From a virus, in the IMG/VR virus record IMGVR_UViG_3300013006_000094, positions 1-30,635 of that record: DNA of 30,635 nucleotides; one strand, given 5' to 3'. Position 1 is the first letter of the stretch. Each line of letters starts with the position of its first letter. Positions 23,008-30,512 of this stretch are shown piece after piece. The translations under genes and the position numbers were made by a program. Under the pieces are notes generated by a model that did no database searches, had not been told where the DNA came from, and worked only from the letters and a program-made list of their open reading frames with translations.

Positions 23008-23796
23008 TTATGGGTTAAGATTAAGCGGATTGCCAACAATTGTTGTTTGTCCGGAAGATGTAATCTCAGTCTGACCGGAAGATAGAATATTTATGTTAGA
23101 TCCTTGAATCTCAGTCTTACTTTGAGATGTCGACAGAACTTGACCTTGAGAATCAATAGTCACATCACCGGATTTTGTTTTTAACGTTATTGTTTCAGCC
23201 AAAACTTCGAAATTTTTACAAACGAATCTTATGTTGCCTTTACTGATAACTTCAATATTGCCAGCTGAATTTACGGACCAATTGCTATTTAATACTTCTG
23301 TCTTAGGTCCAACATAATTTGTTACAGATTTAGCACCAATGTTTTTACGCTCTGATCCTTTAACTGAAATTGTGGTATCACCATTGACCGTGTCAAATTT
23401 ATCTCCGGCAATTGCCTCTGTTAATGCGCCGCCCACGAGAAATTGAAAATTTTCTCCCGCTGCCATATATCTGTTGCCTTCAGTTTGTTCGCTAACAGAA
23501 CCATCAACATTGACATTCATCACTCCCTTTACTTTAACATCATAATGACCATCAACGGTTGTTGAAAATCCATCACACATATAATAATATGCTTTACCAA
23601 CTGAGTTGACTACTGTTCTTCCTGCTTTATCAATTTCTACATAAGAACCTTTAGTATGAGCAACTCTTAGACTTTCTTTATCCGGAGTATCATTTACATG
23701 TATCTCATGCCCACTTCGTGTAATCGTTGATTGATTATACGGATATTCGGCTTCGAATGTAGATTCCGGATGGCGTCTATTATTTGCGTCTGACAT
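23008..23796 (-). CDS. Beta-helical needle protein (gp5 C-terminal-like)
   Basis: 262 residues, AGAGG before the ATG. The N-terminus reads DANNRRHPESTFEAEYPYNQSTITRSGHEIHVNDTP in outline, then ESLRVAHTKGSYVEIDKAGR, a known start of spike needle proteins in T4-like phages and akin to the VgrG C-terminal part. From about residue 85 there are repeated short beta strands (VDGHYDVKVKGVMNVNVDG, KTKSGDVTIDSQGQ, SKTEIQGSNINILSSGQTEITSSGQ) with an eight-residue-like rhythm, as expected for a trimeric beta prism. In T4 this structure is part of gp5; here it is a separate gene downstream of an OB-fold protein. It should form the shaft beneath the PAAR tip. Confidence 0.8.
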   Translation of the reverse strand: MSDANNRRHPESTFEAEYPYNQSTITRSGHEIHVNDTPDKESLRVAHTKGSYVEIDKAGRTVVNSVGKAYYYMCDGFSTTVDGHYDVKVKGVMNVNVDGSVSEQTEGNRYMAAGENFQFLVGGALTEAIAGDKFDTVNGDTTISVKGSERKNIGAKSVTNYVGPKTEVLNSNWSVNSAGNIEVISKGNIRFVCKNFEVLAETITLKTKSGDVTIDSQGQVLSTSQSKTEIQGSNINILSSGQTEITSSGQTTIVGNPLNLNP

Positions 23797-23798
23797 GA

Positions 23799-25433
23799 TT
23801 ATCCTCTATTCAAACCGGCGAGAGCCAATGCATTTTGTCTCGCTAATATTGTTTGCGCGTTTACAAATTCATCCATGGATTCCCTAGCATCGCTTCCTGT
23901 GTATTCGGCTTGACTTATGTTAGGTTGAAATGCCGTGCTAATTGAAGAAACGATGGTTGGAATAAGAGCAGCTGCAACTCCAGCCATTTTAGCGGCACTT
24001 CCACCAGCACCTAAAGCTTTAGAAACACCAAATGCCTCTGTAAAGTTTAAACTACCTGATACTGCTTTTGATAGTGTATCAAAAGAGAGAGGCTGCCCGC
24101 TCAGTAATGTATTACCGATGGTTGAAGTGAATTGATTCTGGGCTGCGAAAGTAGTATGTTCTTCTGCACTAGAATAATTCGGCTCTCCATTTCTTGGAGT
24201 ATAAACGGAAGGACTGGTTCCGTTCGGATCTTTCCATTCAATGAATCCTGGATAAGGGTCGTTATCAACTGTATAATACTGCTGAATGTATCCTTCGGGT
24301 GCAACAGATAACGTATAAATTGAACTTGGTCTTGGTGATGTCGCTGTCGACACTGAAACAGCGGGAGGTAAAGGAACCGACCTTATCAGTGAATTCAATC
24401 TAGAATTAACAGTGCCTGTTATAGAAGCGCCAGCCGCAGTAACCGCTCCTGTGGTAGTATTTATAACGTTATTGATGCCACCAGTTATCGCCCCAACAGC
24501 TGAATTCAATCCACCAACCACGGAAGCAATTGCATAGTTGGCTGTATCAAACACTCCCTGATTAATAAGATTTACGCCGCACACTCGAACATTCAATGAA
24601 TTAATAAGTTTCTGAACTTCTTTAACGTTAGATACAGCAGCATTTAACATACCAAGGAGCTTGAACAACCCAATCCTTTGAGCTAATTGTAAAAGAGCAT
24701 TTCTCATTGCCTGCACAGCTGTCTTGACGACTCCAGAAACAACACCTTGAACTGTGCTACCAAGTAAATTTATAATAGAGGTCATAGAAATTAAATTATT
24801 GTTTAAACAAGGAAGCGAAGCAAGTGAACCCACGGGATCAACGGCATTGATTATGTTCAATACATTCATGTTACTATTTTTGTCATAAGAAGCTACTGTA
24901 GGCAATGTAGGATTAGCCATATTTCTTTCTACAAGGCTAGTCAATACTCCACCAGTTGTATTACTAACAGCTATAATATCAGTCTGACCAGAATCGATAT
25001 CCGAAATACTTACTCTGTTTTCATTCAGTGTTGTGTACGGATTATTTGGATTGCCCTGGCTCCCAGGAGGTATGCTTCCTGTGGCTGTATCGATCGTTGG
25101 CGCGCCACCAGTAGTTTGACCCTCTACAGGATCTCCGGCTCTACCAACAGCACCAAGAATAATAGGAAGCTGATGATCAGCATCAGCCCATTGTCCAAAT
25201 ACTCGCGAGCCAACTACAAGACCGACGGGAGCAGTTCCCATGCGACCGTTAGCGGCTGAGGTTACAGGCTGAACAACCTGCGCCCAGGGTAAAGCATCAT
25301 CAGGTATATTCGTCGTATCATCGTGACGACCGTAGATTCTAACTTTTACTCTACCTGATTGATGCGGGTCATGAACACTAACTACTGCAGCAATGAAAAT
25401 AGCCGATACTTGACCAAAATTACGATCTGTCAT
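23799..25433 (-). CDS. gp5-like hub/spike base protein with OB domain, no lysozyme
   Basis: 544 residues; its start overlaps the gp27-like stop as ATGA, with GAGGAGG upstream. Residues about 8-107 (GQVSAIFIAAVVSVHDPHQSGRVKVRI, LPWAQVVQPVTS, GLVVGSRVFGQWADADHQLPIILGAVGR) match the OB-fold of gp5/VgrG/gpV spikes. T4 gp5 then carries a lysozyme domain; I see none of its Glu-Asp-Thr signature here. Instead residues about 200-350 are Ala/Val/Gly-rich and repetitive (INNVINTTTGAVTAAGA), and a later segment has PYPGFIEWKDPNGTSP and YTPRNGEPN. The last about 130 residues are Ala/Ser-rich and helical. The needle and PAAR tip are in the next two genes, so this protein should form the spike base on the gp27-like hub. 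Peptidoglycan hydrolysis must come from elsewhere. Confidence 0.75.
   Translation of the reverse strand: MTDRNFGQVSAIFIAAVVSVHDPHQSGRVKVRIYGRHDDTTNIPDDALPWAQVVQPVTSAANGRMGTAPVGLVVGSRVFGQWADADHQLPIILGAVGRAGDPVEGQTTGGAPTIDTATGSIPPGSQGNPNNPYTTLNENRVSISDIDSGQTDIIAVSNTTGGVLTSLVERNMANPTLPTVASYDKNSNMNVLNIINAVDPVGSLASLPCLNNNLISMTSIINLLGSTVQGVVSGVVKTAVQAMRNALLQLAQRIGLFKLLGMLNAAVSNVKEVQKLINSLNVRVCGVNLINQGVFDTANYAIASVVGGLNSAVGAITGGINNVINTTTGAVTAAGASITGTVNSRLNSLIRSVPLPPAVSVSTATSPRPSSIYTLSVAPEGYIQQYYTVDNDPYPGFIEWKDPNGTSPSVYTPRNGEPNYSSAEEHTTFAAQNQFTSTIGNTLLSGQPLSFDTLSKAVSGSLNFTEAFGVSKALGAGGSAAKMAGVAAALIPTIVSSISTAFQPNISQAEYTGSDARESMDEFVNAQTILARQNALALAGLNRG
24458..24465 (-). promoter_or_regulatory. TATAAATA within the gp5-like gene, probably chance
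   Basis: Exact box on the minus strand inside coding sequence, about 660 bases from the next start. No gap or gene start lies near it. Recorded because the motif is exact; likely coincidental in AT-rich DNA. Confidence 0.1.
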
Positions 25434-27560: not shown

Positions 27561-28598
27561 TTAGCGATTAGGATCTTCTCCAGGCGCTGGTGGTGGAGTT
27601 AACAATCTAATATTTCGAGTTATAGCAGCAATATCGTTAAAAGAGCTTTCTTCGAAATCATTGTTAGTCCAGTATTCAATTTCTTGCATCTGAATGCTTA
27701 ATGTCACAGCTGTCGGAGCCTGAGAACGTTTGAAGAATGAAGGACCAGATCCAGCAGCATAATTAACGTCTACGCTTTCGATAACACAAGGTTTGAATCT
27801 GTAAAGGAATTCGCTAGAAGGAAACAAACTTACAATAACCATACTCGGAAAGGTAAAAAACAATCCATTACCTTCTGAGACCCCAGGAGAAGTATGAAAT
27901 TGAAATTTTCTAACCAAATCCCTTATTTTACCTGATTCTACTTCGTCTTTAGGCATAAGTTTCCAGGAAAAATTATGTTTCTTGAAAGTAGGTTGTTTAA
28001 ACAAAACTGTTTGAAAAGGATTTACAGCCATCCCGGAATAAGCAGATGCTACAGCTGAAGCTTGTGGGGCAGCTGATTGAACAGCTGCAACTGCAGTGCC
28101 TTCTATAAATGATGCGCCTGCTCCAACTATTCTTCCTAATCCTTGTGTTAATCCAGCTTCGCCCGTAGCGGAAGGACCAGTTCCAACAGCCGATTCCAAA
28201 GCAGCGCCAACGGCAGGTCCGAGTGGTTCAGCTGCATAAGAAACGTTCAAGTTATCTTTCAAATTACTTGGTAAAGGTAAACGAACTGTTCCTTCAGATC
28301 TCAAAAATGGAGAATCATTAATTGATCTTTTTTTGTATTCCTGAAAATTGAAAGAAATATAAAAATCTCTATTAGATTGGACGAGATCTGAGGGGAACAC
28401 TATCTGATTTTGAAATTGGTTAGCCATTCCAGCTCTTCTGTTATACAACCTACGAGCATCCTCAGTTGTATAAACTGCTATCGCAGCAACTGCTAAACCC
28501 TTAGCAGCTGATATTCTATTTGCTGATAATCCAACTCTTGCAGCTACATCCGCTAAATTCGTTGGTGTATTTCTTGGTTGGTTTCCCGTTCCCGACAT
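27561..28598 (-). CDS. 48: Tail-tube cap/baseplate protein, gp48-like
   Basis: 345 residues against 364 for T4 gp48. The N-terminal about 60 residues are Ala/Arg-rich (RVGLSANRISAAKGLAVAAIAVYTTEDARR), then YISFNFQEYKKRSINDSPFLRSEGTVRLPLP, an Ala/Gly-rich stretch (residues about 125-185), and a tube-type domain (FKKHNFSWKLMPKDEVESGKIRDLVRKFQFHTSP, FTFPSMVIVSLFPSSEFLYRFKPCVIESVDVNYAAGSGPSFF, PTAVTLSIQMQEIEYW). The 'F-x-W-x-L-x-P-K...L-x-x-I-I-x-x-F...P...V-x-L-S-I-Q-M-x-E' layout fits the gp19-like fold of gp48 and gp54 at the start of the tail tube. The gp54-like protein is on the opposite strand at 29691, so gp48 is the better label; the distinction rests on pattern only. First gene of the leftward series, with an exact late promoter box upstream. 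Confidence 0.7.
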   Translation of the reverse strand: MSGTGNQPRNTPTNLADVAARVGLSANRISAAKGLAVAAIAVYTTEDARRLYNRRAGMANQFQNQIVFPSDLVQSNRDFYISFNFQEYKKRSINDSPFLRSEGTVRLPLPSNLKDNLNVSYAAEPLGPAVGAALESAVGTGPSATGEAGLTQGLGRIVGAGASFIEGTAVAAVQSAAPQASAVASAYSGMAVNPFQTVLFKQPTFKKHNFSWKLMPKDEVESGKIRDLVRKFQFHTSPGVSEGNGLFFTFPSMVIVSLFPSSEFLYRFKPCVIESVDVNYAAGSGPSFFKRSQAPTAVTLSIQMQEIEYWTNNDFEESSFNDIAAITRNIRLLTPPPAPGEDPNR

Positions 28599-28613
28599 TC
28601 CTAGTTTACCTTT

Positions 28614-28621
28614 GATAAATA
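28614..28621 (+). promoter_or_regulatory. Late promoter-like box for the rightward genes, one mismatch
   Basis: GATAAATA on the plus strand (7 of 8), 34 bases before the gp4 ATG at 28655. It faces the minus-strand box 11 bases away, and both predicted starts fall near 28627, so the two promoters would overlap. Confidence 0.4.
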
Positions 28622-28632
28622 CTGGTTGCTTC

Positions 28633-28640
28633 TATTTATA
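28633..28640 (-). promoter_or_regulatory. T4-type late promoter box for the leftward series
   Basis: Exact TATAAATA on the minus strand in the 56-base divergent spacer, 35 bases upstream of the gp48-like ATG at 28598. The predicted start of transcription is near 28627. It should drive the wedge and hub genes. Confidence 0.65.
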
Positions 28641-28654
28641 ATGAAATTGAGAAG

Positions 28655-29098
28655 ATGGCAAAGTACACACAAGGCTATTTCAAACCAAGAAACCCGAAAA
28701 AATACAAAGGCGACCCGACCAATATCGTGTATCGATCTAGTTGGGAGCTTCGCTTGATGACTCACTTCGACCAGCATCAGGATGTTGTATGGTGGAAGTC
28801 AGAAGAAACAATCATACCTTATCGTTCACCGGTCGATGGAAAAATGCATCGTTACTTCCCGGATTTTCTTATAAATACAAAGAACAGACAGGGATTGAGC
28901 GAGACGATGCTGATCGAAGTCAAACCGAAAGCGCAGACAGTCGAGCCTAAGAAACAATCAACGGTGACGAAGCGATACCTGAATGAAGTCTTTACATGGG
29001 GAGTAAACTCCGCCAAGTGGGCAGCTGCCGAAGAATACTGTAAAGACAAAGGCTGGAAGTTCGTCATCATGACAGAGAAAGAAATCTACGGTAAATGA
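28655..29098 (+). CDS. 4: Head-completion nuclease gp4
   Basis: 147 residues against 150 for T4 gp4. MAKYTQGYFKPRNPKKYKGDP opens the family signature. A TnsA-type PD-(D/E)XK nuclease core is visible: Glu31 in YRSSWE, Asp70 in YFPDF, and Glu88-Val-Lys90 in IEVKPK. W46, W47 and the EETI segment before the PDF motif are also conserved in gp4. The protein acts late in head maturation, at the portal or head-tail junction; its exact cut is not settled even in T4. The SD is weak (GAGAAG abuts the ATG), so translation may be modest. It overlaps gp2 by four bases (ATGA). Confidence 0.85.
   Translation: MAKYTQGYFKPRNPKKYKGDPTNIVYRSSWELRLMTHFDQHQDVVWWKSEETIIPYRSPVDGKMHRYFPDFLINTKNRQGLSETMLIEVKPKAQTVEPKKQSTVTKRYLNEVFTWGVNSAKWAAAEEYCKDKGWKFVIMTEKEIYGK
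28870..28877 (+). promoter_or_regulatory. Exact TATAAATA within gp4, uncertain
   Basis: Exact late box on the plus strand in the gp4 coding region, about 218 bases upstream of the gp2 start. It coincides with Leu-Ile-Asn-Thr codons just after the PDF motif. An internal promoter for gp2 onward is possible, chance equally so. Confidence 0.2.
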
Positions 29099-29691
29099 CT
29101 TCATACATTTTTCAACAACTATCGCAGCGCGGCAGAGCAGAAGGTATAGACAGATCCGATATCGAGGACGCGCGCGATTGGTTTAGACAAGCTGCACAGG
29201 ACGTTCGTAATGTCAACCGTCGTCGTATGATGAATGACAAACAGAACATCAAGACTACTCTAGACCAGAAGTCTATTGGTAAAATGTATACGTTCTTCTA
29301 CGATCCGAAACACAAACAGACACTTCCTTACTACGATTTGTTTCCGCTGATCTTCCTTGTTGATTTCAAAGACAATGGGTTCATGGGAATCAATCTGCAT
29401 TATCTCCCGCCTGTGCTGCGCGCGAAGCTTATGGATTCTCTGTATCAAACGATCAACAATACAAAATACAATGACACAACCAAGCTTAAGATCTCCTATC
29501 ATATCTTATCTTCTGCTTCGAAATATCGCTGGTTCAAGCCATGTCTAAAGTATTATCTGTGGGAACAAGTTGCAAGCAATTACCTAAATATTGAACCTAC
29601 CAACTGGGATTCAGCGCTGATGCTACCGACAGAACAATTCAGAAAAGCGACCAAGGACAAAGTCTGGCGCGAGTCGAGAGAAATGATCTAA
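29095..29691 (+). CDS. 2: DNA end protector gp2-like
   Basis: 198 residues against 274 in T4. The N-terminus is polar and Arg-rich. The hallmark lies at about residues 60-115: IGKMYTFFYDPKHKQTLPYYDLFPLIFLVDF, then GFMGINLHYLPPVLRAKLMDSLY, the 'F-x-Y-D-P-K-x...L-P-Y-Y-D-x-F-P-L...G-x-N-L-H-Y-L-P' pattern of gp2 in T4-like phages. gp2 binds packaged DNA ends and protects them from RecBCD during infection. Next to gp4, as in T4 (genes 2 and 4 are neighbours). It overlaps gp4 (ATGA) and touches the next gene (TAATG), so the three are translationally coupled. Confidence 0.75.
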   Translation: MTSYIFQQLSQRGRAEGIDRSDIEDARDWFRQAAQDVRNVNRRRMMNDKQNIKTTLDQKSIGKMYTFFYDPKHKQTLPYYDLFPLIFLVDFKDNGFMGINLHYLPPVLRAKLMDSLYQTINNTKYNDTTKLKISYHILSSASKYRWFKPCLKYYLWEQVASNYLNIEPTNWDSALMLPTEQFRKATKDKVWRESREMI

Positions 29692-30512
29692 TGTTCAACA
29701 TCGCAAGATTTTCGGCTCACATAAATGACAGCGGAACTGTTCAAACTAACAAATTCATCGTAAGAATCCCACCACCTATAATTTTGCGAGATGGGTTTGA
29801 AGTAGTGCAAAGATCAATCGAATACAGAGCGAACTCAGTAAAAGTTCCTGGAGTCGATTTAGACACTCAAAATGTTTCACGCTATGGTGTGGGTCCATCA
29901 CAGAAATTTCCAACCAATGTTAACTTCACGGATGTTGATATCAACTTCCTTGATACGAATGGTAATTATATTTGGAAGTATTTTGCGAAATGGATGAACG
30001 GAATATTTGACTATACTGGAGTGAGTGGGGGAAATGAACCTAGTTATAAAGTTGAATACAAAAAATACTATCAGACAAATATTGAAATATTTGTTTTTGA
30101 TAATGCCGGTCGTCAAACCAACGCTATCATTTTGAAAGAAGCTTTTCCGATTTCGTTGAGTGATGTTAGTTTGTTATGGAGCGAAAATAATCGTCTGTAT
30201 GAATTCAGTGTAAGATTTTCATTCAGAGAATGGTTTTACAGTGGTTATAATATTGGTGTATATGACTCTCGTGAAACTATAGGTCCTGGACAAACAGCAC
30301 AAGTAGTTCCTAATCCAATCGAATCGCCAAGAATGCGAGATGAAGGTAGAATTAATCCTGGAGGATTCAATGCTGAAGCTCAACAGCGACGTAAAGAAAA
30401 TTTCGCTCAACGAGGAAGAAATAACGGGTTTTATTCGCCAGAGCAACAAATAGTATTCGAAAGTCTTGAACAGGCGGAAAACAACATAGCTGGCGGAGCC
30501 GCTGGTCGATAA
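29691..30512 (+). CDS. 54: Tail-tube initiator/baseplate protein, gp54-like
   Basis: 273 residues against 320 for T4 gp54. Residues about 14-205 carry a tube-type domain: GTVQTNKFIVRIPPP, VERSIEYRANSVKVPGVDL-like strand, then FPTNVNFTDVDINFLDTNGNYIWKYFAKWMNGIFDYTG, KKYYQTNIEIFVFDNAG, LKEAFPISLSDVSLLWSENNRLYEFSVRFSFREW. The layout (N-F-x-V-x-I...V-P-G-x-x...F-L-x-D-x-x...W-x-x-W-x-N) matches the gp19-like fold shared by gp54, gp48 and the tail tube protein. Its place after gp2 and before a gp26-like gene favours gp54, but the tail tube itself cannot be fully excluded. The last about 70 residues are Gln/Arg/Glu-rich and probably disordered. Begins at the gp2 stop (TAATG). Confidence 0.6.
   Translation: MFNIARFSAHINDSGTVQTNKFIVRIPPPIILRDGFEVVQRSIEYRANSVKVPGVDLDTQNVSRYGVGPSQKFPTNVNFTDVDINFLDTNGNYIWKYFAKWMNGIFDYTGVSGGNEPSYKVEYKKYYQTNIEIFVFDNAGRQTNAIILKEAFPISLSDVSLLWSENNRLYEFSVRFSFREWFYSGYNIGVYDSRETIGPGQTAQVVPNPIESPRMRDEGRINPGGFNAEAQQRRKENFAQRGRNNGFYSPEQQIVFESLEQAENNIAGGAAGR

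Follow-up and report, generated by a model that had tools for sequence, protein, structure and literature searches.

Facing T4-type late-promoter boxes at the gp4 strand switch of a viral genome fragment and their recurrence among related phages

The gp48–gp4 strand switch and its two boxes

The stretch of viral DNA analysed here, referred to as the window, spans positions 1 to 30,635 of the IMG/VR record IMGVR_UViG_3300013006_000094. According to its list of open reading frames, two late gene sets diverge from an intergenic strand switch of 56 bp (28599–28654). The leftward unit, on the minus strand, begins with a gene for a gp48-like baseplate tail tube cap (27561–28598; phrog_230, E 2.5e-42), and since T4 gp48 matches phrog_230 as well, the gene to the left can be identified specifically as gp48. 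The rightward unit, on the plus strand, begins with a gp4-like head closure protein carrying a TnsA-like N domain (28655–29098; phrog_218, E 3e-59), followed by a gp2-like DNA end protector (29095–29691; phrog_429, E 5.1e-52) and a gp54-like tail-tube initiator (29691–30512; phrog_45, E 5.4e-28), the latter belonging to the same family as T4 gp54. The names gp4, gp2 and gp54 proposed in a previous sequence-only reading of this DNA hold on the basis of these PHROG families; a PDB search with gp48 and gp54 gave no matches, and the names rest on the family assignments. In T4, gp48 and gp54 are adjacent and co-directional, and in the window they occupy opposite sides of the strand switch (27561–30512). 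Farther along the minus strand, the gene for a gp5-like baseplate hub and tail lysozyme appeared split into two ORFs (23008–23796 and 23799–25433), which match separate parts of phrog_430 (18–141 and 325–554 of 868) and in which no lysozyme domain was found in Pfam.

Within the strand switch, a late-promoter box GATAAATA on the plus strand (28614–28621), predicted to drive gp4, gp2 and gp54, points at a box TATAAATA on the minus strand (28633–28640), predicted to drive gp48 and the leftward baseplate genes. The two are separated by an 11-bp spacer (28622–28632), so that the plus strand reads 28614-GATAAATA-CTGGTTGCTTC-TATTTATA-28640, exactly the facing arrangement, 11 bases apart, that had been noticed from the letters of this DNA. 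The late-promoter box of T4 occupies positions −13 to −6 (PMC1524935). Because of this rule and the 11-bp spacer, both predicted +1 positions fall on the same base, 28627, in the middle of the gap, where the sequence-only reading had placed both starts only approximately. The predicted leaders measure 28 nt rightward and 29 nt leftward. Both boxes resemble TATAAATA with a degenerate −13 base and lie upstream of conserved late genes (gp48 on one side, gp4, gp2 and gp54 on the other), as expected for T4-type late promoters, and their geometry is that of a face-to-face divergent pair whose polymerase footprints would overlap.

The minus box is perfect and the plus box departs from it by a single mismatch, a G at −13. 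Boxes upstream of genes in the window carry A, C, T and G at this position, NATAAATA boxes precede several other window genes, and other T4-like phages show the same degeneracy at −13 (PMC1524935). Among relatives the plus box has T in 10 cases, G in 5 and A in 3, and the minus box, too, varies at −13. Since this position is degenerate, G at −13 is a normal variant, and the weakness previously attributed to the mismatch was overstated. The earlier proposal of a lowered right side remains plausible at the level of translation. As judged from pairing with the 16S tail, the ribosome site of gp4 (−2.7 kcal/mol) ranks third weakest among 21 genes, in agreement with the weak site suspected before, while that of gp48 (−4.3 kcal/mol) is a mediocre twelfth strongest.

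Single boxes prove nothing in this DNA, because one-mismatch boxes are no commoner in the window than in shuffled sequences (52 found, 67 expected). The facing pair, defined as ATAAATA-N5-25-TATTTAT, is found a single time in the window, where 0.03 are expected, and 2 of 100 shuffles contain one. Its origin by chance is ruled out by the relatives, in which it was found in 18 of 45 gp4 clusters, again with 0.03 expected, and in which 28 of 29 pairs lie at gp4. At five diverged loci with the same 11-bp spacing, mean identity reaches 93% in the boxes, falling to 42% in the spacer and 44–54% in the flanks. This contrast between the conserved boxes and the unconserved spacer and flanks makes it very probable that both boxes are real late promoters. 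The phage collection held no close DNA relatives of the window.

Recurrence and variation at the gp4 locus

Searches with gp4 returned 80, 9 and 80 loci, with some contigs shared between the searches, and cultured phages were added to these, and clustering of the gp4 proteins at 70% identity left 45 clusters located at a strand switch. Facing NATAAATA boxes were present in 18 of these 45 divergent clusters (0.03 expected from shuffles), and outward NATAAATA boxes in none of them. When CTAAATA was also allowed, the facing pair appeared in 23 clusters against 0.05 expected; even this relaxed form is absent from the other 22, so the layout is not universal. Of 38 related IMG/VR records, totalling 1.11 Mb, 29 contained the facing pattern, once each, and 28 of these 29 had it at the start of gp4; the outward control pattern gave one match in the same records. 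No facing pair was present at 7 loci classed as co-directional, nor in four further cultured phages (44RR, IG49, CPX and GAP32). The gp4 clusters share ancestry and 18 clusters do not amount to 18 independent events, hence these counts show persistence more than repeated origin.

In the gp4 cluster of the window itself, 16 of 17 members keep both boxes of the facing pair. L007 and L009 have a perfect plus box, TATAAATA, at the same position and orientation as in the window, and the minus box TATAAATA is conserved among relatives. Genes for gp55, gp33 and gp45 were not recognised in the 30.6-kb window fragment; a search of related records for gp55 alone found it in T4, P-SSM4 and G032, the contig of L061, which also has an 11-bp facing pair.

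The same layout is found in T4, where the gap between genes 4 and 53 reads TATAAATA-TATTATC-TATTTATA, with a spacer of 7. Spacers in other cultured phages measure 7 in Klebsiella VPA32, 8 in Escherichia SAP, 10 in Escherichia VR7, 15 in Acinetobacter AB-Navy4 and 18 in Synechococcus S-CREM1. To the left of the gap lies gp53 in T4 and its kin; in the window and in Syn9, whose boxes at the gp4/gp48 gap are degenerate, it is gp48, and S-CREM1 has a tail tube protein there. Since the partner gene differs between phages, each box appears to serve its own gene. Overall, sequence comparison indicates that the layout recurs at the gp4 locus from T4 to marine phages.

Across facing pairs at gp4 the spacer ranges from 7 to 23 bp. 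By the T4 start rule, the predicted starts coincide only at a spacer of 11, run apart at 7–10, and give overlapping RNA 5′ ends at 12–23, with leaders of approximately 18–46 nt on both sides among the relatives. Although 11-bp spacers occur in several lineages, this range leads us to reject an exact shared start as a conserved trait; judging from the aligned gaps, the recurring factor is the overlap of the predicted polymerase sites and not one fixed register. Spacers cluster at 10–12 and 20–22, a hint at helical phasing, though values of 14–16, 18, 7 and 8 occur too.

Some divergent gaps depart from this picture. Those of L186 (Vibrio phage D482) and L128 carry CTAAATA- or GATAAATA-type boxes pointing outward, the reverse of the usual orientation. 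At L024, L025, L027, L029 and L031, a gap of about 24 bp upstream of gp4 holds one box, TATAAATAGTGGAATG, without a facing NATAAATA box, and the T4 rule would place the first RNA base at the A of the gp4 start codon ATG, predicting a leaderless late mRNA. T4 (NC_000866) has a second divergent gap, between inh and segE (112022–112041), in which late boxes face each other across about 6 bp.

Proposed promoter use at the shared site and its alternatives

We consider it likely that the window contains a compact face-to-face divergent pair of T4-type late promoters serving two late operons, with one polymerase at a time. Host RNA polymerase loaded with gp55, aided by the gp45 clamp and gp33, would open either box of the 56-bp gap. 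From the left box, transcription would proceed rightward through gp4, gp2 and gp54, and from the right box, leftward through gp48 and other baseplate genes, both RNAs beginning at or next to 28627 and diverging without overlap. A polymerase on one box would cover the other, and a given DNA copy would then be transcribed in only one direction at any moment. The many copies replicating late in infection would nevertheless allow expression of both operons, with interference at most modest. The late-promoter machinery and its start rule are established for T4; for the window phage we infer that both boxes are used, where exactly RNA starts, that the promoters exclude each other and how large any interference is. 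Since two polymerases cannot fit there together, size leaves almost no alternative to mutual exclusion, which sustains the previous suggestion that the holoenzyme occupies one box at a time.

The use of the minus box alone, with gp4 transcribed from 28870 or from farther upstream, would accommodate the mismatch in the plus box, as well as L010, which retains a minus-type box without a matching plus box. We judge it very unlikely, given that the facing pair is retained with its plus box in nearly all members of the window cluster and that the plus box is perfect in L007 and L009. The box TATAAATA at 28870–28877 (plus strand) sits within gp4 and is not conserved, being absent from L009 and most other clusters. 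It spells only part of the gp4 codons for FLINT and is lost when these residues change, as in L009, so it is probably a coding coincidence and an improbable promoter for either gp2 or gp4.

The inverted repeat could also be read as an RNA hairpin hiding the gp4 ribosome site on read-through RNA, with only one box being a promoter. T4 offers a precedent: of its four facing pairs, those at 71917 and 144430 fall within the leaders of segB and I-TevI, where published hairpins mask the ribosome site in early transcripts (PMC2988022). A stem of moderate strength (−9.5 kcal/mol) could also arise at T4 gp4 and in some relatives, where a hairpin might have a secondary role. The positive controls segB and I-TevI, however, fold at −19.4 and −16.2 kcal/mol, whereas the read-through RNA of the window lacks a box-to-box stem in its minimum-energy fold, and the openness of its ribosome site is the same with or without that stem (0.66 and 0.68, respectively). 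Moreover, the −13 bases cannot pair in 9 of 18 cluster representatives, and the flanking genes are both late and on opposite strands, unlike the endonuclease leaders. A strong stem between a box and its inverted copy that hides a ribosome site, the hallmark of the I-TevI type, was not found in the window, and we regard the hairpin as a highly improbable explanation of the pair.

If a face-to-face pair of late promoters is accepted, the reason for its overlap has to be considered. Two late genes meeting within about 50 bp, each needing a leader of 20–30 nt, might overlap their promoters as a matter of compaction, without any regulatory role. Facing pairs are commonest at gaps of 50–62 bp, occurring in 9 of 12, no gap shorter than 30 bp has one, and longer spacers accompany longer gaps. 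Short gaps favour facing boxes on space grounds alone, and because facing pairs are most frequent at 50–62 bp, compaction could by itself explain much of the pattern. Facing boxes also occur at gaps of 64–77 bp, yet phage D482 has outward boxes at 68 bp, which indicates that length alone is not deciding, and we hold the chances of pure compaction to be evenly balanced. Selection of the overlap for competition, such that firing one way represses the other and sets the ratio of the gp48 side to the gp4/gp54 side, appears doubtful. The overlap is conserved despite the varying spacer, and three of the four clusters with gaps of 62–80 bp, where outward boxes could fit, have facing boxes. At bidirectional promoters of E. 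coli the two directions interfere only when one of them is strongly activated (PMC12825309), a behaviour that lends the idea some support, but basal firing in that study was too weak to interfere. Any effect would be diluted by the many phage genome copies, and a spacer of 7–23 bp, rather than a fixed one, implies that the geometry is not finely tuned. A measurable competition between the two boxes is plausible but unproven. The orientation of the gp45 clamp on DNA sets the direction activated at T4 late promoters (PMC2988020). We speculate, as a very unlikely extension, that the pair works as a replication-polarity switch, in which the orientation of nearby clamps or nicks chooses between the boxes, so that the discontinuously copied strand picks the operon, and the shared site balances the flanking sub-assemblies.

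Relation to known promoters and meaning for T4-type phages

The late promoters of T4, which depend on gp55, gp33 and gp45 and include the pair at genes 4/53, share with the window the same 8-bp box without a −35 element, the position of gp4 at a strand switch and the facing boxes. The T4 pair differs in its spacer of 7, its predicted starts 4 bp apart and gp53 as left partner, compared with 11, coincident predicted starts and gp48 in the window. Face-to-face divergent promoters are known in bacteria from bioA/bioBFCD and argE/argCBH of E. coli. These resemble the window in their divergent genes, in promoters facing across the starts and in overlapping polymerase sites. In the window, by contrast, gp55 would act as the sigma factor, neither a −35 element nor a repressor operator is known, and the predicted starts coincide. 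The bidirectional promoters described by Warman and colleagues in E. coli likewise produce divergent RNAs from a short DNA segment with mutually exclusive polymerases; their starts, 18, 10 or 23 bp apart, flank a shared −10 element or fall inside it (PMC12825309). The window has no such shared element; instead, two separate boxes flank one shared predicted start. As for the I-TevI and segB leaders of T4, their hairpins overlap late promoters and they combine a TATAAATA-like box with an inverted copy downstream (PMC2988022). In those leaders a strong RNA stem keeps one gene from being translated, whereas in the window the two flanking genes are late and divergent and a strong stem is lacking.

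In the open literature searched, which lacks most subscription journals, we found no paper describing late promoters that face each other, diverge, overlap or act in both directions, and none mapping the starts of T4-type late promoters at the gp4 locus. Arrangements of this kind are known from bacteria, and the component parts from T4; the same literature yielded no account of the recurrence at the gp4 locus. That the layout returns at one gene boundary from T4 to marine phages, while partner gene and spacer change, suggests a link between late operons of opposite strands at the point where they begin. Since T4 shares the layout, both the mutual exclusion and a choice by clamp orientation are directly testable with the existing purified system.
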